DNA from: an uncultured Pseudomonadales bacterium
GTDB taxonomy: Bacteria > Pseudomonadota > Gammaproteobacteria > Pseudomonadales > Azotimanducaceae
Assembly (NCBI GenBank): GCA_938036875.1
Contig: CALHVX010000017.1
Coordinates: 1 to 64,000, forward strand
DNA: 64,000 bases
Reading direction: 5' to 3'
Of this stretch, positions 3,350 to 63,712 are shown in pieces (the first letter of the stretch is position 1; every line of letters begins with the position of its first letter). A program made the position numbers and the translations under genes. Under the pieces are notes generated by a model, which saw nothing but the letters and a program-made list of their open reading frames with translations, did no database searches and had not been told where the DNA came from.

Positions 3350-4431
3350 TAGTCGAACATAATAACGTTGCGTGCAATCTCACCGGTTTCTAGCTGCTGC
3401 ATCGCTTCGTTTACGTCCTTCAAGCCAATGTGTGCTGACACCAGGTCATCAAGATGCAGTCGACCCTGCATGTAAAAATCAACAAAGCGTGGCATATCAA
3501 CACGGAAACGGTTGGAGCCCATAAAGGATCCTTGGATCTTCTTTTCCATCAAGAAATCTGGACCATGCAAGGTCACCATGTCCCCTGGTGGAATCATGCC
3601 GATGACGGTTGCGGTACCACCGTTGCGCAACATACCAAAGGCTTGCTCGGCCGTTTGCTTCAAACCGATCGCCTCGAAAGCGTAATGAACGCCACCGCCG
3701 GTTAACTCTTTAACCGCCTCGATGGGATCGTTTTCGCGTCCGTTGATTGTGTCGGTAGCACCAAATTTACGTGCCAGATCTAACTTGGAGGGCACCATAT
3801 CAACAGCAATGATGCGCGACGCGCCAGCAATAGCTGCACCGTTGATGCAGGACAAACCGATGCCACCACAACCAATAACGGCAACCGTTGCACCTGGTTC
3901 AACTTTGGCTGTGTGAATCACCGCACCAACACCCGTGGTGACACCGCAACCGATAAGTGCCGCTCGGTCCATGGGCATGTCTTCGCGAATCTTGGCAACC
4001 GCGTGTTCATGCACCAACATCATCTCAGCAAAAGAACCCAGGTTGGCAAACTGTTGGAGCGGCTTACCGTTGTCGGATACGCGCTGCTCATCTTTGGTAT
4101 CACGCTTGGTTTCTGGCTCTTGGCACAAGGACATGCGACCGGTCAAACAATGCTCGCAATGACCGCAGAACACAGACAGACAAGTGATGACATGATCGCC
4201 CGGCTTCACGTAATGGACATCACTACCCACCTGCTCAACAACACCTGCACTTTCGTGGCCAAGGATCATGGGTAGCTGGCCAGGGTAAGTACCGTTAAAG
4301 AAATGCATGTCGCTATGGCAAACGCCCGCTGCCGAGGTGCGGATCAGCACCTCACGAGGACCAGGCTTAGAAACCTGCACCTCTTCAATTTCCATAGGTT
4401 GATTTACTTCGCGAAAAATTGCCGCCTTCAT
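3349..4431 (-). CDS. Zn-dependent alcohol dehydrogenase (class III/aryl-alcohol dehydrogenase-like)
   Basis: GVCHSDMHFFNG, GHESAGVVEQVG, CGHCEHCLTGRMSLC zinc motif, GCGGIGLSCINGA Rossmann motif; start MKAAIFREV. Confidence 0.9.
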   Translation of the reverse strand: MKAAIFREVNQPMEIEEVQVSKPGPREVLIRTSAAGVCHSDMHFFNGTYPGQLPMILGHESAGVVEQVGSDVHYVKPGDHVITCLSVFCGHCEHCLTGRMSLCQEPETKRDTKDEQRVSDNGKPLQQFANLGSFAEMMLVHEHAVAKIREDMPMDRAALIGCGVTTGVGAVIHTAKVEPGATVAVIGCGGIGLSCINGAAIAGASRIIAVDMVPSKLDLARKFGATDTINGRENDPIEAVKELTGGGVHYAFEAIGLKQTAEQAFGMLRNGGTATVIGMIPPGDMVTLHGPDFLMEKKIQGSFMGSNRFRVDMPRFVDFYMQGRLHLDDLVSAHIGLKDVNEAMQQLETGEIARNVIMFD

Positions 4432-4485
4432 GCCCTGCCCCTCTAATTCAAATCGCCTTCGAGTTTGCCCCAATTAGAGCCGGGG

Positions 4486-5535
4486 TTAAAGGCTTGCGAG
4501 GTCTGCGTTGACCAAAGCCGCAGCGGCGCTGACCGCAGCCGCCAAACCCGTGGCGTCAGCAACACCCTGGCCGGCAATATCAAAGGCGGTGCCGTGATCC
4601 ACCGAGGTACGGATAAACGGGATACCTAAGGTTGCCGTAGTGCTGTGATGGAAATCGTGGACTTTGATCGCGATATGGCCTTGGTCGTGGTACATCGCCA
4701 GCACTACGTCAAATTCGCCATTGATGGCTCGATTGAAAACCGAATCCGCAGGGATTGGGCCGCTGGCATTGATGCCTGCCGCCTGAGCAGCAGCCACGGC
4801 TGGCGCAATTTGCTCAATCTCTTCAACACCCAACAAGCCACCCTCACCGTTGTGCGGATTCACACCAGCCACGGCTATGCGTGGATTAGGCAAACCCCAA
4901 CGCTGCAGCGTTTGCTGAGTCAGCTCGAGCTTTTCCAACACCACATCGCGTTGGATGTAGCTAACGGCTTGAGCCAGCGATTTGTGGGTCGACAGGTGCA
5001 CTACCCGCAAACCTGGGGTCATTAGCATAGTGGCCGTCCATTGGGCGCCGGTCAGGCGCGCCAATATCTCCTGATGCCCAATGTCATCCACATAGCCGGC
5101 CGCATGAATGGCCTCTTTGTTGATGGGGCAGGTCACCATAGCGGCCGCGCTATGGCTGACACAGAGCTTCGCGGCAAGCTCTACGGCCGCCACTGCAAGG
5201 GCACCACAGCCCGCCTGTACTTGTCCAAACTCAAAGTCTGCGGGCAAGGCCCCTAAGTCATACACCCAAAGCCCTGGCGCTAGATCTAAGTCAACCGGAT
5301 TAACCAGCGCCTGATCGCTGGGGACCGGCAACGCTTGCAGTGGCGGCAACACAACTTGAGCGGCTGCCGCTCCGCGCTCCAGGGAAGCTAGAGAACCAAT
5401 GAGCAGCAACGGCTGGTTGAGCTTAGCGAGATCGACACTCACCAGATATTTGGCCAGCACTTCTGGGCCAACGCCCGCCGGATCACCCATGGTGACGAGT
5501 AAAGGGATTGTCATGGTTGCCATTGTACCCAGCAT
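4486..5535 (-). CDS. pdxA: 4-hydroxythreonine-4-phosphate dehydrogenase
   Basis: TMGDPAGVGPEV..., VTCPINKEAIHAAGY, GHQEILA, MYHDQGHIAIKV, GTAFDIAG. Confidence 0.95.
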   Translation of the reverse strand: MLGTMATMTIPLLVTMGDPAGVGPEVLAKYLVSVDLAKLNQPLLLIGSLASLERGAAAAQVVLPPLQALPVPSDQALVNPVDLDLAPGLWVYDLGALPADFEFGQVQAGCGALAVAAVELAAKLCVSHSAAAMVTCPINKEAIHAAGYVDDIGHQEILARLTGAQWTATMLMTPGLRVVHLSTHKSLAQAVSYIQRDVVLEKLELTQQTLQRWGLPNPRIAVAGVNPHNGEGGLLGVEEIEQIAPAVAAAQAAGINASGPIPADSVFNRAINGEFDVVLAMYHDQGHIAIKVHDFHHSTTATLGIPFIRTSVDHGTAFDIAGQGVADATGLAAAVSAAAALVNADLASL

Positions 5536-5612
5536 TCGCCTGGGTGCCGCACTAGGTCTGGAAATAGCGCCAGAAATGGGCCTCGCGCTTAGTCTTGGGC
5601 ACTTACAAAAGT

Positions 5613-5632
5613 AACTGTATATATATACAGTA
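5613..5632. promoter_or_regulatory. candidate LexA (SOS) box AACTGTATATATATACAGTA
   Basis: CTGT-N8-ACAG palindrome; 19/20 match to the E. coli-type consensus TACTGTATATATATACAGTA; lies between divergent pdxA and the 5685 ORF. Confidence 0.75.
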
Positions 5633-5684
5633 TCCGACCAAGTGAGCAGTCAGCACTAGCCGCGCGGATCAGATACAAGACCTC

Positions 5685-5960
5685 ATGCAAACCATAGGCG
5701 AGCTACAACAGAATTTTTCGCTGTACGCTGTGTGTGCGCCATGCAAACGCATGCACGCGCTACCTTTGAATGACTTGGTTGCAACGCTGGGCGCGGACAC
5801 GCCAATCAGCGCAGTGCGGCAGCGGTTACGCTGCCAGCACTGTCAGGTACGTACAGAAGATATTCGAATTGTCTTTACTGGACCCTGCAACAAAGCGGCA
5901 GGGTTTCACTATCGCCGCAGTAGTATAGACAGTGGCGTAGACAGCACAAAAGATCGTTGA
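5685..5960 (+). CDS. small protein with two Cys pairs (CAPC...CQHC), zinc-ribbon-like, unknown function
   Basis: 91 aa ORF; CAPCKRMHALPL...RLRCQHCQVRTEDIRIV. Confidence 0.65.
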   Translation: MQTIGELQQNFSLYAVCAPCKRMHALPLNDLVATLGADTPISAVRQRLRCQHCQVRTEDIRIVFTGPCNKAAGFHYRRSSIDSGVDSTKDR

Positions 5961-5963
5961 GCG

Positions 5964-7064
5964 TTAGCCTTCGAGAAGCTCGGTGGACTCGAGCTTCAAT
6001 CCAAAGCCTTCAACACCAACGTAGTCCACTTCACGACCCGCGATGATGCGAATTCGGCGCAGGCCAAGGTCACGCAATATTTGCGCGCCAACACCAATCT
6101 CTAACCACTCAGCGTGGCGTTCCGCTTCGCGAGATTCTTCCATCAGCGCACCAGAAGGCACGCCAACGTGGCCCGAGCGTAGGTAGATCAGCACACCAGA
6201 ACCTAGGCTGGCAATGCGATCTAAGGAGACATCCAGCAAGTTGTTTTTATGCTCGGCGTTCTGAGAGCCGAACACATCGTCCACAAACTTCTCGCGGTGA
6301 ATTCGCACCGGCACCGATTGGTCACCGCTAACATCACCAAAGATCAGCGCTATGTGTTCTGCCTCTTCAAACTTGGTCTTGTAGGCAATGGCTTTAGCCG
6401 GACCAATTCGCGTTTGCATGGAAAATTCTTGGGTTTTCTCGACCAACTGCTCACGCATCTGTCGATGAGCAATGAGATCGGCAATGGAGATCAACTTCAG
6501 CTTATGCTCAGCGGCAAACTCACGCAGCTGAGGCAGACGTTGCACTGTGCCGTCGTCGTTCACCAGCTCAGCCAGCAACGCCACCGGTGGCATGTCGGCT
6601 AGCTGTGCTAAATCGATACCGGCTTCGGTATGACCCGAACGCACCAATACACCACCTTGTCGTGCAACTAGTGGGAAGATATGACCAGGACGCACAAAAT
6701 CACCGGCGGTGACGTTGCTATTGGTTAAGGCCTGCACCGTAGCCGCACGCTCTTCCGCAGAGATGCCCGTGGTCAGACCTTCTTTGTAATCAATGGACAC
6801 GGTGAACGCAGTGCTCATGGGCGCGTCGTTGCGCGCAACCATGGGGTCCAAGTGCAGCTCTTTGGCGTAATCTTCTAGGATTGGGGTGCACAAGATGCCG
6901 CTAGTGTGGCGGATCATAAAAGCCACTTGTTCAGGGCGGGCTTTGGACGCCGCCATGATCAGATCACCTTCGTTCTCACGGTCATCGTCATCTACAACAA
7001 CCACCATCTCTCCGGCTGCAATGGCTGCTACCGCTGACTCTATAGTGTCAAAATCCGCACTCAT
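5964..7064 (-). CDS. ribBA: bifunctional-type 3,4-dihydroxy-2-butanone-4-phosphate synthase with C-terminal GTP cyclohydrolase II-like domain
   Basis: VVVDDDDRENEGDLIMAA, RRGHTEAGIDL-like segment, C-terminal GCHII-like fold region without an obvious catalytic Cys triad. Confidence 0.9.
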   Translation of the reverse strand: MSADFDTIESAVAAIAAGEMVVVVDDDDRENEGDLIMAASKARPEQVAFMIRHTSGILCTPILEDYAKELHLDPMVARNDAPMSTAFTVSIDYKEGLTTGISAEERAATVQALTNSNVTAGDFVRPGHIFPLVARQGGVLVRSGHTEAGIDLAQLADMPPVALLAELVNDDGTVQRLPQLREFAAEHKLKLISIADLIAHRQMREQLVEKTQEFSMQTRIGPAKAIAYKTKFEEAEHIALIFGDVSGDQSVPVRIHREKFVDDVFGSQNAEHKNNLLDVSLDRIASLGSGVLIYLRSGHVGVPSGALMEESREAERHAEWLEIGVGAQILRDLGLRRIRIIAGREVDYVGVEGFGLKLESTELLEG

Positions 7065-54600: not shown

Positions 54601-54608
54601 CCGGCGAT

Positions 54609-55394
54609 CTAGTCGTCAAAATCTTCGAAGTCGTCATCGAAAAAATCTTCTTCTGGTGGATCACCATCAAAGATTAAAAACTTCTGGCGTTGATAGTAGG
54701 CTTCTCGGGTAAACACATAGGGATCTAGTGATGAATCACGTGCATCCGTTATGGTCAACAATTGTGCACGAGCATTAAGCAACCGCAAACCACGTATCCA
54801 GGGTTCAAATGCATCCCCCAACAACAGTTGCGGTATCATCATGCGTATGGCCACCGAAGGTAGATCACGTACCGAAGAAGGGCCTAGAAAGGGTACGTTC
54901 ACATAAGGCGTCTGCGTTGCACCCCAAACTGCGAAGGTTTGGCCGAGATCCTCTTGACCCGGTTGCAAGCCAATGCGCTGGCCCACGTCAAAAATGCCGC
55001 CTATCCCTAACGTGGTATTAACCACAACCCGAGTAAGGTCAGTCGCCCCACGCTTAGGCTTGCCTTGAAGGAAACCGTTAAGCGCGCTATCGATGCCTAA
55101 TAAGTTGGAAAACACATTATCAATTGCTGTGCGCCACCAATCAGGCGTGATGTAGGCATAACCACGTGCCAAGGGTGCCAAGGTTTTGCGATCGATCCAA
55201 TCCGTGGCGTTATAGCTAGCTCGATTGAATCCTTCCATAGGATCGCTAGATTGGTAGTCCTGCTCAGGCACACTGGCACAGCCTCCCAGCCCCAAACTCA
55301 ACATCAAGCTAACGATCAATATGCGAATGTCACTCAAAACTACTGCTCTCCATCTGCTTATTGCAAAAGAACTATTACCTAAAGCTTCTGCCAA
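54609..55394 (-). CDS. mlaA: MlaA (VacJ) family outer-membrane lipoprotein
   Basis: LGLGGCASVPEQDYQSSDPMEGFNRASYNATDWIDRKTLAPLARGYAYITPDWWRTAIDNVFSNL, TTLGIGGIFDVGQRIGLQPGQEDLGQTFAVWG. Confidence 0.94.
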   Translation of the reverse strand: MAEALGNSSFAISRWRAVVLSDIRILIVSLMLSLGLGGCASVPEQDYQSSDPMEGFNRASYNATDWIDRKTLAPLARGYAYITPDWWRTAIDNVFSNLLGIDSALNGFLQGKPKRGATDLTRVVVNTTLGIGGIFDVGQRIGLQPGQEDLGQTFAVWGATQTPYVNVPFLGPSSVRDLPSVAIRMMIPQLLLGDAFEPWIRGLRLLNARAQLLTITDARDSSLDPYVFTREAYYQRQKFLIFDGDPPEEDFFDDDFEDFDD

Positions 55395-55511
55395 AAAATG
55401 ATTCTACCCGCCCCTTTTACGCCAAGGTGTCGCCAGAATTACAGTGCGCCTCAAGCAAACTAGACTCAGACAAATGTGAATTCTAAAGAGCAAAAGTGTA
55501 ACGCTAAGCGA

Positions 55512-56792
55512 TCAACGAACAAAGACCAAACTCAGCCAGGGGATATAGGTAATGAGGCCAAGGGCAAGAAGCATCACCAACATAAAGGGCCAGCAAGCTG
55601 CATAGAGCTCCATCAATGGCTTTTTGAATCGATAGCTGGCAATAAATAAATTCATGCCAATTGGCGGTGTGAAGTAGCCAATCTGCATATTGGCCAGAAA
55701 GATAATACCCAAATGCACCGGATCAATCCCGTAACCCACAGCAACGGGCAGCAACAACGGCACCATGATAACTAGAGCAGAGAAGACGTCTAAGATCGCG
55801 CCAAGCAATAACAGCAAGACGTTAAGCAAGAGCAAAAACATCAACGGGTTCTTGATGTTTTCCTGGGTGATTTCAAACAGTTGCTGCGGAATTTCTGCAT
55901 CAACCAAGAAATTGGTGAAGGCCAGAGCCACGCCCAAAATCAGCAAGATGCCACCAACCATTGCCATGGATTCTTTGATAACCCTTGGCAGCGCGCTGAC
56001 TTTTACCTCGCGGTACAACACCACTTCTGCAAGCAATACATAAGCAGCGGTAACCGCTGCCGCCTCTGAGACCGCAAACTTGCCCGCGTAAATACCACCG
56101 AGCACAACAAAAGGTAAAGGCAACTCCCAACGCGCTGCCCACAAAGCCGAACGCAGCTTAGCCGCGCTGAAAGGGACCCTAGGTAGATTTGCATCACGTA
56201 GATGCCACAGCGTCCAGACGATTAGCAGCCCGAGCATGATGCACAACGGCAGTAAACCGGCGACAAAGAGATCAACAATGGTAAAAGGTTCGCCCACATC
56301 CATTTGCTGCGCGATAATGCCGTACAAGATAAGCGGTACAGAAGGCATCAACAGCAAGCCTAAGCTGCCAGATGTTGTGACCAACCCTAAGCTGTAACGT
56401 TCGCTATAGCCTTGCGACGTAAGCGCCGGCAGCAGCAGTGCACCTAGCGCAACAATAGTTACCCCAGAAGCGCCGGTGAGCGCCGTGAACATAGCACACA
56501 CAATAAAGCCAACAATCGCTAAGCCCGCCGGCATGCCGCCAACAACCGCTTGCGCCAAGTTCACCAAGCGCTCGGAAGTTTTCGCTTCAGCTAACAGGTA
56601 ACCGCTTATCGTGAACAGCGGTAGAGCAACCAGCATGGGTGTATCGACAATTCGATACAACTCAATGGGGACAATGGTTGGGTCGATATCAGCACTAACA
56701 AAACCCAACATAGCAGCGGCGATGAGCACTGCAAACAACGGTGCGCCGCACAGTGCGGCAACCACAATTACAACTATACCCAAGGTGATCAT
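55512..56792 (-). CDS. dctM: TRAP transporter large permease (DctM)
   Basis: LVALPLFTISGYLLAEAKTSERLVNLAQAVVGGMPAGLAIV, TALTGASGVTIVALGALLLPAL, FLANMQIGYFTPPIGMNLFIASYRFKKPL. Confidence 0.95.
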   Translation of the reverse strand: MITLGIVVIVVAALCGAPLFAVLIAAAMLGFVSADIDPTIVPIELYRIVDTPMLVALPLFTISGYLLAEAKTSERLVNLAQAVVGGMPAGLAIVGFIVCAMFTALTGASGVTIVALGALLLPALTSQGYSERYSLGLVTTSGSLGLLLMPSVPLILYGIIAQQMDVGEPFTIVDLFVAGLLPLCIMLGLLIVWTLWHLRDANLPRVPFSAAKLRSALWAARWELPLPFVVLGGIYAGKFAVSEAAAVTAAYVLLAEVVLYREVKVSALPRVIKESMAMVGGILLILGVALAFTNFLVDAEIPQQLFEITQENIKNPLMFLLLLNVLLLLLGAILDVFSALVIMVPLLLPVAVGYGIDPVHLGIIFLANMQIGYFTPPIGMNLFIASYRFKKPLMELYAACWPFMLVMLLALGLITYIPWLSLVFVR

Positions 56793-57250
56793 GGCAACCA
56801 CACCGTGCGTAAGGCGTAGCGCAAGGTCAGTATCACGGCGCCAAAAGGTAAAACCGATTCGCAAACCCAAGCCGGAACCGATGCAAACGCAAGGGTCCCA
56901 TCTTGATACTCAAACAACACAAATTGATAGCTATAGTAAGCAAGAAGGCCACACATAACGCAGGTAAAAGCGTTAGCAAAGCGTTGGACTACCTGGCTGC
57001 TGCGCGGGCCTAAGAACCGAGATATCGCATCAATGCGAATGTGTTCTTCGCGTCGAGCAGCCATCATGGCACCCACCATGGTCACCCAAAACACCAGCAC
57101 CCGGAGCAGGCCATCGCCCCAGACTATGCCGGTGCTAAAAAAGTTACGCGCTAACACTTGATAGGCTGCCAACAACAGCAGCCCCAACACCAACGTAACC
57201 AGCAGGCTGTCCTCCAACCAGTGGAGCCAGCGCAATAACCTTTGCGCCAT
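56789..57250 (-). CDS. dctQ: TRAP transporter small permease (DctQ)
   Basis: WLEDSLLVTLVLGLLLLAAYQVLARNFFSTGIVWGDGLLRVLVFWVTMVGAMMAARREEHIRIDAI. Confidence 0.92.
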   Translation of the reverse strand: MAQRLLRWLHWLEDSLLVTLVLGLLLLAAYQVLARNFFSTGIVWGDGLLRVLVFWVTMVGAMMAARREEHIRIDAISRFLGPRSSQVVQRFANAFTCVMCGLLAYYSYQFVLFEYQDGTLAFASVPAWVCESVLPFGAVILTLRYALRTVWLP

Positions 57251-57254
57251 ACCT

Positions 57255-58310
57255 CTAGCGCATTTCCGCCAGGTAACCCTGCATTTCAGTCCATGCTTGT
57301 TTCGATACAAAACCCTCTTCGACCAGTTGGCCGTTGGCTTTGTTTGCTACCGCTTGCCACTCAGCCAGTTCTGCTTCGGTTGGCTCATTCCATTTAAGGC
57401 CTTGTTGCTCAAGCACCAAGGCAGCTTTGGCGTTGTCTTCACGACTACGCGCATTGACCTTCGCCACCGCCTGGCCCATCAAATCACGAGTGATTTGCTT
57501 GTCCGCTGGGATCACCTTCTTAAACTGCCGCTCACCAACAGTAAGCAAACCGTAGGTGTATAGCAGAGGTAATCGGGTTAGGTTTTCAACCCGAGTGTGC
57601 CACTGCAACGTGATCGCACCCACTGGTGGCGCCGCAACCGTGTCGATCAAACCTGTCTGCAAACCGCCCAGCACGTCAGCTATGGTGAGCGGAATGGGAC
57701 TCACGCCAAAGGCTTCTAAACCCCGTGCGGTACCCAGGTCACCGTCCGGTGTCCAGACCTTCTGTTTGCGTAAATCGCCGACGCTCGAAATACCCCGCTT
57801 GGACATCATGTAGGCGAAGCCAATCTCAGCGATACCAAAGCTGACGTAACCTTTCTGCTCCAGGCCGGCCATAATCTTAGGATCCATTCGCTCGCGCACA
57901 TAATCCAACTCAGCATGGTTCCGAAAGACCAAAGGTAGTCCGTATAGATTCAAATCTGGATAGTTTTGCGCCAGCACACCCACGGTTAACACCGCACCAT
58001 GCAACTGGCCAACACGCATCTTGCGCAACACCGCCTTGTCGTCCCCCATGACGCCGCCAGGGTAGAACTTAAACTTAACCCGGCCTTCAGTGCGCTCGGC
58101 AATATCGGTTGCGGCTTGTTGCAACTCACGCATCCACACTGAGCCAGCCGGCGAGACCGTTGCAATTTTTAGGGTTACCGCCTGAACGGGTGCCGCCGCA
58201 TAGGCCAAGGCTAGCCCGATACCCAGACCTACCAGCTTCAACCGGGCCGCAAATTTGCTCACCACCCCGGTCGCCCTGCCTAAGTTGGTCTGCCCGCTAA
58301 AAATACGCAT
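57255..58310 (-). CDS. dctP: TRAP transporter substrate-binding protein (DctP)
   Basis: LKIATVSPAGSVWMRELQQAATDIAERTEGRVKFKFYPGGVMGDDKAVLRKMRVGQLHGAVL, GGLQTGLIDTVAAPP. Confidence 0.95.
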   Translation of the reverse strand: MRIFSGQTNLGRATGVVSKFAARLKLVGLGIGLALAYAAAPVQAVTLKIATVSPAGSVWMRELQQAATDIAERTEGRVKFKFYPGGVMGDDKAVLRKMRVGQLHGAVLTVGVLAQNYPDLNLYGLPLVFRNHAELDYVRERMDPKIMAGLEQKGYVSFGIAEIGFAYMMSKRGISSVGDLRKQKVWTPDGDLGTARGLEAFGVSPIPLTIADVLGGLQTGLIDTVAAPPVGAITLQWHTRVENLTRLPLLYTYGLLTVGERQFKKVIPADKQITRDLMGQAVAKVNARSREDNAKAALVLEQQGLKWNEPTEAELAEWQAVANKANGQLVEEGFVSKQAWTEMQGYLAEMR

Positions 58311-59193
58311 CCGCCGTCTCCATCAGTGCCCTGGCTCGTTCTTGAGCCACAGTGTTCGTTAATGTTAGACCACTTACCTGAGGATTAGTGCTAAGTACTT
58401 CCGCAAGCAATTTGTCATGTAATTCACGGTCAAACTGAGCGCGGGCATATTCCTGCGCGTACATCACCTTAACCATTAAGGCAGATTCACCCGCAATATC
58501 GAGAGCCGACTCAAAGTGCCTCTTTGCAACCTCAGGCCGGCCACCAACAGAGGGTGGCAGCAGAACCTCAAAGACACCCATATAAAGGTGCGGGCCACCG
58601 TTGTCGAAGGTTGGGTCTAACTCCAACATACGAGCCATTAGCGCTTTCACTCGACCTAGCTCCGCAATCGCTGCAAAGTCATCACTGTTAGCCTGCATCC
58701 ACCCTGCCCAACTGGTGCCCAGGCCATACACTAGCGGCACATCTTTCTTGCCTAAATCCGCAAGCCACGCTTCATACTCCGAGTATTTGCGGGTTCGCAG
58801 GTCACAGCCATCGTCAATTCCTAAGCACACAGACCGCTCCGACATCGCCAACGCTTTCGCATTGAGCAGCCGCGCACGCTCAGGCTCTTGCACAAAAGCG
58901 GTGGCGTACGACGAGTTCAACAAGGCCGCTTGCTTCAACAGCTCAGGGCTAGAAGGCTCCGAGCCAAGCAAACCGTCAATCAAAATTAAGTACGCAGGTG
59001 CCCCATCACGCACCGTCGCTAGGTCTGGGTTGTCCAAGATGGCCGTGGAGAGTTGTGCAGCAAAGTCTTCGGTTACCGTATTGATGACGGTTCGACAGCC
59101 ACCTAAACCTGGAAGAATCAGCAAAGCTAACAAAGCAACCAACAGACGCTGGACGCGCGTTACAACACGTGGGGCATAGAATTTCATGGGCAA
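58297..59193 (-). CDS. TRAP transporter TatT-component (TPAT) family lipoprotein
   Basis: Lipobox LPGLGGC; YLILIDGLLGSEPSSPELLKQAALLNSSYATAF, MLELDPTFDNGGPHLYMGVFEVLLPPSVGGRPEVAKRHFESALDIAG, VMYAQEYARAQFDRELHDKLLAEVL. Confidence 0.9.
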   Translation of the reverse strand: MPMKFYAPRVVTRVQRLLVALLALLILPGLGGCRTVINTVTEDFAAQLSTAILDNPDLATVRDGAPAYLILIDGLLGSEPSSPELLKQAALLNSSYATAFVQEPERARLLNAKALAMSERSVCLGIDDGCDLRTRKYSEYEAWLADLGKKDVPLVYGLGTSWAGWMQANSDDFAAIAELGRVKALMARMLELDPTFDNGGPHLYMGVFEVLLPPSVGGRPEVAKRHFESALDIAGESALMVKVMYAQEYARAQFDRELHDKLLAEVLSTNPQVSGLTLTNTVAQERARALMETADAYF

Positions 59194-59361: not shown

Positions 59362-60426
59362 TTAGAGAAGCGCACCAGGTAAATCGTTCACCGCAACGTA
59401 ACTTATTTTAGCACTGTCTGAGTAAATCGAACGGCAATAGTCAGATGTTTTACGTTGAAGACCACCTTTCACCAGCTTAACGCTACGTTGCTGGAGCACA
59501 GTTTGACGTTGCGCTGCCGCCGCTAAGGCGCGCTGATAAGCCTTTGCTGACAACACCGACCCGCCGTCAGCACCATTTTCCAGATGGCCAACGTATTGGG
59601 TGAGCGCCACCTGCCGGCTCAAGTTTCGCTCCAAGCGCCGCAAGTACCACAACGCTTGCTTGTTGCTTTCGGACAAGTTTTCACCCAGCAGCTCCAACTG
59701 GCCCACCAATTGAGTAACCCGCCGTTGCCAACGTAACAAACGCTTTATCGACAAACCGCCTAATTTTTGGCGTTTGAGGTTACTTTTACTAGTGCGCTTG
59801 GCCCGCCGATAGGTCCTGCCAAAACCGCCCTCAACAATTATTTTATTGGAGCAACCTCGCGCACCGAAGGCTAGTCGCCAAGCTTGGGACTCCACCTGAA
59901 AGAGACGGCCTAAGGGATTTAAATTGGGTTTAGCAGAGCTTACCGGTGCGCGCAGCAAGCTGCTCCATTCATCCATCACCTGACGAAGCGCGGCTCGCGA
60001 CTTGCTGCTACCGGCGCGATCCAACAAGTCTTGTGCCACCCGCGCGAAGCTGACTTGAGCCGGCAAGAGCCTGTGGATTTGCTCTATCCGGGCGGCCGCT
60101 TCTCGAAACTGAGATTTGCCAACACGCTTGCGTACTAATTGCCAAGCAGCCATGAGTTGGTCTGTTGCGCTACGCAACTCACGCCACTGCAGATCACTAA
60201 ACCCATCGGTCTGGCTGAGGATCAGCAAACAGCGACTGTTTCGATGAAGTGCTTGGCTCACCACAAAATCTAGCAGGCGCATGTGAACCACGTCTGCGGA
60301 GCCACCGGCTGCGTCGTTTGCAGACCCTGTCAAAGGTATGCCTAAAGACAGAGAAGAAGACGCAGCAGAGCCCTGGCCGTCGCCAGCATCACTCCCTGCT
60401 TTCGTCAGACCTTGAATATCTGTCAT
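59362..60426 (-). CDS. CHAD-domain-like protein
   Basis: Basic helical C-terminal half FGRTYRRAKRTSKSNLKRQKLGGLSIKRLLRWQRRVTQLVGQLELLGENL resembles CHAD HxxRVxxKKLRYxLE-type helices. Confidence 0.6.
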   Translation of the reverse strand: MTDIQGLTKAGSDAGDGQGSAASSSLSLGIPLTGSANDAAGGSADVVHMRLLDFVVSQALHRNSRCLLILSQTDGFSDLQWRELRSATDQLMAAWQLVRKRVGKSQFREAAARIEQIHRLLPAQVSFARVAQDLLDRAGSSKSRAALRQVMDEWSSLLRAPVSSAKPNLNPLGRLFQVESQAWRLAFGARGCSNKIIVEGGFGRTYRRAKRTSKSNLKRQKLGGLSIKRLLRWQRRVTQLVGQLELLGENLSESNKQALWYLRRLERNLSRQVALTQYVGHLENGADGGSVLSAKAYQRALAAAAQRQTVLQQRSVKLVKGGLQRKTSDYCRSIYSDSAKISYVAVNDLPGALL

Positions 60427-61450: not shown

Positions 61451-63712
61451 CTATCCCTGAGCAGGTGCGGCGGCTGGCGTGGCCTCAGCCGCGCGTGTTT
61501 TGCGAATGGCGGCACAGGCAGACCCTGCATTCAGCGCCCGGCTTGCCATCCCATCAGCCACCACCGACAACCCGCCGGTAGAAATGGCCGCACCAATCGC
61601 CACGCCACTTTTTAGCAACCCACCCGCATCCGCTGCGGGTTTAGGATCGTTTAAGCGCCCGCCAAGCTTCAGAAACTTCACCAAGCTCCCAACGTTCACG
61701 CCAACCCCAGATTTTGCGACGGGAGAAAAGGTAATGCTCAATTGCTCTTTGTTCAGGTCAACCTTGCCATCCCCAACAATCTCCATCTTGGAGGTTTCCA
61801 TCACCAGCTGCTTGCTAGTGCTTAGTACCCCTTGCTCAACACTAAAATGCACAAGCGCACACTCTAGCTCTGTGGTGGGATCTTTTTTACTGAAAGGGTT
61901 CAGCTTGTTCAGTGTTTCCATCAGCAAATCCGAGCCAGCCAGCTCAATAAAGTCATTCATCAGCCGAGCCTCATCCACAATTACCAATATATCCCCCTGC
62001 AAAGCAGCAGCGAGATCGTGTGCGGAGCGGCCGTCGGTTTTAAGCTGCACATCTACCTCTAAGGCCCCACCTTTGAGCTCTTCTTGGGGCACAAACCCAA
62101 AGCTCTCCAACTCAACGTCGTTGACTTGCAATGACACCAGCGCGGCAACAGCATCCGCAGCCGTATCTTTGTTAGTAAGCCCAAGCTCAACCGCGCCACT
62201 AAAACCGCCGTTGCCAATGGTTGCGGCAAAGGGTTCCAGCTTTAACTGACCATCTGCACTGTTGAGTTGCACATTGAAATCGGTGAATACCGCATCCTGC
62301 AACTTTAACTCCTGGGCGGTGAGGGCAACGTCAACTTGAGCTGCCTGCAACCAACTCCAGTCTAAGGGTTCCTCGGCAAACACTGGCGCCGGGTCTGTTT
62401 TTGTTTGTGCTTTGTCGACATCAACAGGAACCTCAGCCTGTTCAGCACTTGCTTCTGGAGGGGCATCGGATGAGGTCACCAAAGGCAAGTACAAGCGTTG
62501 CGCTTGGAGATCTGCTGTTACTTTGAGCGGCCCATCAAATGCAAGGTTCAAGGCACCTGCAAATTGATTGGTCGGGGACTCAAAGTTCAGCGCCGACAGC
62601 GCCAGTGCTGCAGCGCTCGCCTGCACTTCACTAGCCAACGTTAACGGGAACAAATCCGCATCAACATAAGGCTGCACCGCAAAGGCTGGCGGCAGACCTT
62701 TACTGCTTAGGTCCAGCTGACCGTGCCAACTGTCGGCGGCTTTGGTTGATAAAGTTTCTAAGGTGATCAAAGACTGACCAATCTCAGCCGTGCCATCCAC
62801 CTGCCAGGCGCCCGCCGGCGTTCCTCCCACAAGGTTTAGCGCAAAATCCAGCGGCGCATCCCACCCCGGCGCTTGGTACTGACCCGTTAACTGCTGCAGC
62901 TCAACACCATCGCTGCCACCAACCTCCACCACCTTGATCGTACCCGCCAGCTGAGGCAACAAATGTTTGTCAGCACCTAAGACAACATCAACGTTGCCGC
63001 TGCGCAACAAGATAGAAGGGGTTTTGCCCCCAGCCAGCTCACCGACCAGAGCAAGCCTGGTTTGCATCTCATCGGACTCTAATGAGCTGGCGCCTCCTTG
63101 CAAATCAAAGCCCAAGGTCTTTGCGCTGCGAGTTAACGTACCCGCCAACTCAAACGCGGTACCCGCTGCTTCGCCGGTTGCGGTTAACGCGATGTCTTGG
63201 GCTTGCTCGCCGGCAGCCTGTTGACCCGCATTAAGCTGAAGCCGCAACACCGGTGCCGCAACACCGTCTTGCTCAACCAACAACTCCCCAACGCGCACTT
63301 TGGTAAAGGTGAGGTAGCTCAAAAAATCTAAGGGTGTTGATTTGGCATCGGTGGACTCCTCGACAACGGTTTCTTCATCAGCGATCTCAGCTGCACCAAG
63401 TTGCACGTCAGCACGGTCGACCTCAACCAACCAAAACGGCTCATCCGTCCACCAAGCGCTAAAGTTTGCTTGGGTGCTTACATTGGCAAGCTTCACCCTT
63501 TGCTCCCCGGGTAGATCCAGATCAAGCGCCCCCACTTGTAACTCCAGCGGATCAAAATGCACCGACATCCCATCAGCGCTCACTAGAACATCGCTTTGCA
63601 CAGCGTTTGCCGCTGATACCAACCACTGGGGTTGAAAGCGCACAACCGCCACGAGCACTAACACCAACAAGACTATCAATGCCAACAGGTAGCCAAACAA
63701 TTTGATCAACAT
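61451..63712 (-). CDS. AsmA-like/DUF748-type envelope biogenesis protein
   Basis: N-terminal TM; FQPQWLVSAANAVQSDVLVSADGMSVHFDPLELQVGALDLDLPG; C-terminal AsmA-type MEIVGDGKVDLNKEQLSITFSPVAKSG. Confidence 0.8.
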   Translation of the reverse strand: MLIKLFGYLLALIVLLVLVLVAVVRFQPQWLVSAANAVQSDVLVSADGMSVHFDPLELQVGALDLDLPGEQRVKLANVSTQANFSAWWTDEPFWLVEVDRADVQLGAAEIADEETVVEESTDAKSTPLDFLSYLTFTKVRVGELLVEQDGVAAPVLRLQLNAGQQAAGEQAQDIALTATGEAAGTAFELAGTLTRSAKTLGFDLQGGASSLESDEMQTRLALVGELAGGKTPSILLRSGNVDVVLGADKHLLPQLAGTIKVVEVGGSDGVELQQLTGQYQAPGWDAPLDFALNLVGGTPAGAWQVDGTAEIGQSLITLETLSTKAADSWHGQLDLSSKGLPPAFAVQPYVDADLFPLTLASEVQASAAALALSALNFESPTNQFAGALNLAFDGPLKVTADLQAQRLYLPLVTSSDAPPEASAEQAEVPVDVDKAQTKTDPAPVFAEEPLDWSWLQAAQVDVALTAQELKLQDAVFTDFNVQLNSADGQLKLEPFAATIGNGGFSGAVELGLTNKDTAADAVAALVSLQVNDVELESFGFVPQEELKGGALEVDVQLKTDGRSAHDLAAALQGDILVIVDEARLMNDFIELAGSDLLMETLNKLNPFSKKDPTTELECALVHFSVEQGVLSTSKQLVMETSKMEIVGDGKVDLNKEQLSITFSPVAKSGVGVNVGSLVKFLKLGGRLNDPKPAADAGGLLKSGVAIGAAISTGGLSVVADGMASRALNAGSACAAIRKTRAAEATPAAAPAQG

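Follow-up and report, generated by a model that had tools for sequence, protein, structure and literature searches.

An intact TPAT-type TRAP operon with an adjacent mlaA gene in an uncultured Pseudomonadales bacterium, read as a reduced form of a seven-gene operon of its relatives

Why does a gene for the outer membrane lipoprotein MlaA stand directly behind the genes of a tripartite ATP-independent periplasmic (TRAP) transporter? The question is raised by a locus in the window, a stretch of 64,000 nucleotides which comprises positions 1-64,000 of contig CALHVX010000017.1 (assembly GCA_938036875.1) of an uncultured Pseudomonadales bacterium. The importer is of the tetratricopeptide repeat (TPR) protein-associated type (TPAT), in which a lipoprotein, TatT, accompanies the binding protein DctP and the permease DctQM. 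An earlier note on this DNA had proposed that MlaA, TatT and DctP form a relay which replaces the pump of the Mla lipid transport system. The locus is found here to hold a genuine, intact TPAT TRAP operon, with the TatT fold, one operon with dctP and dctQM, and a DctP which has lost the usual ligand-clamping arginine. The explanation preferred is that this importer stands beside an MlaA which is left over from a lipid traffic cassette and works mainly with carriers encoded elsewhere, to which a probability of about 0.5 is given. All genes of the locus are on the minus strand, and the features are as follows.

58297..59187, minus strand: tatT, TPAT T-component lipoprotein of 296 amino acids; start ATG 59187, lipobox GLGGC, PF16811 (TAtT) 230 bits.
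57255..58310, minus strand: dctP, TRAP solute-binding protein; start ATG 58310, PF03480 111 bits, NF037995 285 bits, Trp186 in place of the carboxylate-clamping Arg.
56789..57250, minus strand: dctQ, small TRAP membrane subunit; start ATG 57250, PF04290 91 bits.
55512..56792, minus strand: dctM, large TRAP permease; start ATG 56792, PF06808 251 bits, TIGR00786 335 bits.
55338..55511, minus strand: gap of 174 bp between dctM and mlaA, the site of hpnM in relatives; no long open frame, consensus promoter or terminator.
54609..55337, minus strand: mlaA, outer membrane lipoprotein with an acidic C-terminal tail, of the cassette-type clade; PF04333 192 bits.
54601..54608, no strand: gap of 8 bp before a convergent PAS-GGDEF-EAL gene, the site of hpnN in relatives (compare loci L035 and L039, where hpnN sits between mlaA and the GGDEF gene).

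In a profile search of the window all five families (MlaA, DctM, DctQ, DctP and TAtT) scored well above their Pfam cut-offs, and the tight co-directional arrangement of tatT-dctPQM, followed on the same strand by an intact mlaA, as described earlier, was borne out. The probable starts, as read from the sequence, place tatT-dctP-dctQ-dctM in a tight operon: tatT and dctP overlap by 14 bp, dctP and dctQ are separated by 4 bp, and dctQ and dctM overlap in an ATGA. The distance of 117 bp formerly given between dctM and mlaA holds if the upstream TTG at 55394, which opens the longest frame, is used; the likeliest start is the TTG at 55337, directly ahead of the signal peptide MSDIRILIVSLMLSLGLGGC and the lipobox LGGC, and this yields 174 bp. 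A consensus promoter and a terminator were looked for on the minus strand of this gap and neither was found; mlaA may be co-transcribed with tatT-dctPQM. A remnant of hpnM in the gap was also considered and discarded, as no long open frame was seen.

The predicted structure of TatT (AlphaFold, predicted local distance difference test (pLDDT) 83) best matches the solved TPAT proteins 8g52 and Tp0956 (3u64/4di3), with query-based template modelling scores (TMq) of 0.71-0.74; the sterol binder BstC (7t1s) is a weaker match (TMq 0.55). Hydrophobic pores or the binding of hydrophobes are known from proteins of the TatT type (PMC5812351; for BstC PMC10942540). The lipoboxes of TatT and MlaA, as read from the sequence, carry no Asp at position +2, and by the general lipobox rule both would be sorted to the outer membrane. 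DctP lacks a lipobox and begins with an ordinary signal peptide. Its Trp186 aligns with the Arg which clamps the ligand carboxylate in solved DctPs, a position occupied by Trp in 94 and by Arg in one of the 95 DctPs linked to TatT (a set of loci which includes a few genomes sampled twice). This Arg is required for high-affinity carboxylate binding and is missing in about 3% of DctPs; Tp0957 has Ala instead (PMC4646407). As a DctP without the clamping Arg points to a hydrophobic or otherwise atypical ligand, such a ligand is well supported for this importer, and the Trp makes a polar carboxylate unlikely, the kind of ligand that would have spoken against the hydrophobic one formerly proposed. 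The near-universal Trp of TatT-linked DctPs thus offers a simple marker, at the sequence level, of this ligand class. The predicted structure of DctP itself is poor (pLDDT 60) and unfit for judging the pocket.

A close known parallel is the TPAT of Treponema pallidum (Tp0956-Tp0957). In common with the window it has a T-component of the TatT fold, a DctP and a permease in one operon, and it has likewise lost the Arg of DctP, with Ala in Tp0957 where the window has Trp. It differs in having a single tatQM gene (PMC5812351) where dctQ and dctM are separate in the window, in that the window's DctP is no lipoprotein, and in that mlaA follows the window's TRAP genes; the sequence similarity of Tp0956 to the window's TatT is very low. 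Judged by its family, TatT, as a TPR pore protein anchored in the outer membrane, would hand a hydrophobic and probably non-classical-carboxylate ligand to soluble DctP, which would deliver it to the DctQM secondary permease, ion-driven as is typical of its family.

The origin of the neighbouring mlaA was traced in a survey of 59 genomes around the window, 37 of them from its family (37 genera sampled, the window's own genus being represented by one genome). TatT was above cut-off in 30 of the 37, and in 11 of these 30 a co-directional mlaA follows tatT at a distance of about 3-4 kb, which rules out chance adjacency; most of the repeats are explained by shared ancestry. Nine of the ten other linked genomes, each of another genus, carry the order tatT-dctP-dctQ-dctM-hpnM-mlaA-hpnN (in L036 the contig ends before the position of hpnN): a gene of the MlaC family stands between dctM and mlaA, and an MMPL/RND gene follows mlaA. 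HpnM is a periplasmic carrier of the MlaC family and HpnN a lipid pump of the RND (resistance-nodulation-division) family; the best solved relative of the cassette HpnN is HpnN 6wu0. With the NCBIfam models the relatives score 136-163 bits for HpnM (TIGR03481, cut-off 160) and 679-710 bits for HpnN (TIGR03480, cut-off 752), which makes them HpnM-like and HpnN-like, not certified equivalogs. The same order was met in loci L080, L081 and L083-L088 of uncultured Gammaproteobacteria and Pseudomonadales, L081 and L086 appearing to duplicate genomes already sampled. Open-licence literature yielded no paper which joins "MlaA" with "TRAP transporter" or "MlaA" with "HpnN", while "VacJ" and "TRAP transporter" do co-occur, and the TatT-DctPQM-HpnM-MlaA-HpnN operon, of which the window holds a cut-down version, is apparently undescribed so far. 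As this recurrent operon joins a TPAT, an MlaA channel, an MlaC-type carrier and an HpnN-type pump, it names concrete candidates for the passage of TPAT ligands across the outer membrane.

The cassette resembles the HpnM-HpnN hopanoid transport system in its genes and in the pairing of HpnN with the VacJ family, a member of which, encoded in the hpnN-hpnM operon of Burkholderia ubonensis, is required for pump function according to unpublished data cited in PMC7157819. It differs from that system in the subthreshold scores of its HpnN, in being joined in the relatives to a TPAT operon, and in that both hpn genes are missing in the window. A further difference is that squalene-hopene cyclase (PF13243) gave no match in G000 or in eight of the nine cassette genomes and a weak partial match in the remaining one (G025), so that a self-made hopanoid is unlikely as cargo. 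Hints of another cargo come from variants of the cassette. In three loci where HpnM-MlaA-HpnN occurs without TRAP genes (L073, L082, L089) a membrane protein of the sulfatase family (PF00884) follows, and in G011 (L048) a glycosyltransferase (3538-4701) replaces hpnM-mlaA between dctM and hpnN of a TRAP locus; these neighbours may point to phospho- or glycolipids. HpnN-type pumps thus occur separately from hopanoid synthesis, as does MlaA from the genes of the Mla ABC (ATP-binding cassette) pump, which suggests that MlaA may be an outer membrane port common to different inner membrane engines.

For the ancestral operon a two-way exchange is a tentative possibility, compatible with the preferred explanation: TPAT would import, and HpnN, HpnM and MlaA export, the same or a related lipid, and the window would keep the import arm and MlaA. 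In most of the cassette loci the seven genes overlap or lie within a few bp of one another, a spacing which leans short as starts were picked closest to the upstream stop. HpnN carries hopanoids to the outer membrane (PMC12583986) and TRAP transporters import, and in Methylococcus the T-component BstC shares its sterol ligands with the RND protein BstA (PMC10942540). Against it, the two halves are separable, the cassette being found without linked TRAP genes in L070, L073, L082 and L089 and TRAP genes without the cassette in most genomes. The Bst system of Methylococcus capsulatus (BstA, BstB, BstC) shares with the cassette operon the pairing of a T-component with an RND-family protein and with the window the similarity of fold between TatT and BstC. 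It differs in being a three-protein set without DctP, DctQM and MlaA, and the cassette HpnN reaches only 150-178 bits with the BstA model, which has a cut-off of 1400.

That the window is a reduced form of the seven-gene operon is supported by gene order and by trees. In the MlaA tree the window falls within a clade of 19 (support 100/98) made up of 15 full operons, three HpnM-MlaA-HpnN loci without TRAP genes, and the window, and in a tree of tatT-dctP-dctM obtained by a quick method it is nested among the cassette operons with a support of 99. As both its mlaA and its TRAP genes lie inside the cassette group, hpnM and hpnN were lost and mlaA was kept. Neither hpnM nor hpnN, as met in the nine relatives, flanks the window's mlaA or was found elsewhere in the genome; for HpnN the best match was 2.6e-14, compared with 1e-163 or better in three relatives. 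The only MlaC of the genome is the one in mlaFEDC on contig C37. The cassette is missing several times on the TRAP tree, best read as repeated loss, and in G014 it is found at the same chromosomal spot in a genome with no TatT. The cassette would thus have joined the TRAP operon in an ancestor of the window lineage and later been trimmed, MlaA being the last remaining piece after its cognate carrier and pump had gone.

The protein left behind looks sound. Its residues 50-239 match positions 2-194 of the 195 of PF04333, open frame, lipobox and every residue invariant in the cassette clade are retained, and the mean identity to the cassette-clade MlaAs (48.4%) is similar to their mutual identities, so that it has diverged no more than MlaAs in full operons. 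It is therefore probably still an outer membrane lipid channel. With the Mla system (MlaA-MlaC-MlaFEDB) it shares the family and the lipoprotein nature of MlaA; it differs in that the common MlaA of the family falls in a different clade, and in its score of 105 bits, where the MlaA equivalog cut-off is 375.

Which partner does it have now? The kept MlaA would serve as a phospholipid or other lipid channel, most likely for MlaC-MlaFED of contig C37, or else hand over directly to TatT. MlaFEDC is slightly favoured because two relatives (G010, G015) have MlaE and MlaC and, as their only detected MlaA, the TRAP-linked type, which may thus serve MlaFEDC, and because the window's genome is without the common MlaA type of its family. 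MlaE and MlaC of C37 were recognized by Pfam, MlaF and MlaD by inspection. The earlier statement that the window has no mlaFEDCB genes is correct; the genome has mlaFEDC on that other contig (MlaB was not looked for). Substitution of the cassette for a missing MlaFEDB is not supported, as MlaE escaped detection in 4 of the 11 genomes whose MlaA is linked and in 10 of the family's 26 others.

Several observations weigh against the leftover reading. The retention of mlaA beside the TRAP genes after hpnM and hpnN were lost fits a direct MlaA-TPAT link, and so does G009, where the only MlaA of the genome lies 32 bp behind dctM without hpnM or hpnN; this MlaA groups apart from the cassette MlaAs, in another clade, and may reflect a separate association. 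MlaFEDC could just as well have as its partner a second MlaA of the window's genome (L001, contig C68), of a third type which is again not the family's common one. With a draft assembly of 190 contigs, 96% complete, the absence of hpnM and hpnN is not absolute. Functions are assigned throughout from family and context.

A direct hand-over from MlaA to the importer is thus possible and not the likeliest reading. In its full form, in which TatT, DctP and DctQM take over from the Mla ABC pump and receive a lipid or hydrophobic ligand of the outer membrane from MlaA, it is doubtful. The intact TPAT operon, the DctP without its Arg, the linkage of TRAP genes and mlaA across genera, the absence of visible relaxation in the kept MlaA, the hydrophobe-handling nature of TatT-type proteins and G009, where no MlaE was found, all agree with it. 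Against it, the linked mlaA is missing in 19 of the 30 TPAT genomes of the family, and none of the 54 TatT loci from other families of the class (42 with at least 1.5 kb beyond dctM) has mlaA nearby; the adjacency is thus conserved inside the family and not outside it. Eight TatT genomes (G003, G006, G007, G013, G020, G021, G036, G042), two of them single-contig assemblies, gave no MlaA match, which indicates that TPAT does not require MlaA and, with the 54 loci, rules out MlaA as a general TPAT subunit. Moreover, mlaA of the relatives stands between its own carrier and pump genes, both lost here, and the genome has mlaFEDC; it is the replacement of the Mla pump which finds no support.

It is unlikely, if bolder, that TatT-DctPQM-HpnM-MlaA-HpnN is one trans-envelope lipid machine, in which TRAP importer and RND/MlaA route would act on a single hydrophobic ligand in bacteria that make no hopanoids, and which in the window would be cut to TRAP and MlaA, with MlaA feeding TatT directly. 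A neutral remnant without dedicated partner, redundant with the MlaA of C68, would fit the loss of both cognate partners and the repeated absence of cassette genes on the TRAP tree, and is made very improbable by the intact, no more than normally diverged MlaA.

Some minor observations were made on the way. The MlaA of C68 lies in a tight triad between a hydrolase/thioesterase-like protein and a Peripla_BP_6 binding protein, and its type is also found in G004, G014 and G030 (clade support 100/99). In three genomes (G009, G016 and G032; L239, L240 and L241) MlaC was matched and no MlaE found, the MlaC gene being near murA in G009 and G016. A distant TPAT operon (L204 in G286) has a weak MlaC-like match directly behind dctM (5369-6028). 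Near the TRAP-mlaA locus the window encodes an AsmA-family protein (61451-63712, minus strand); AsmA-like proteins are also tied to envelope lipid transport. A protein of 354 amino acids (59362-60426, minus strand) is unmatched in Pfam, even with the threshold relaxed to E 0.5, and is kept at the same spot in several genera with 27-31% identity.

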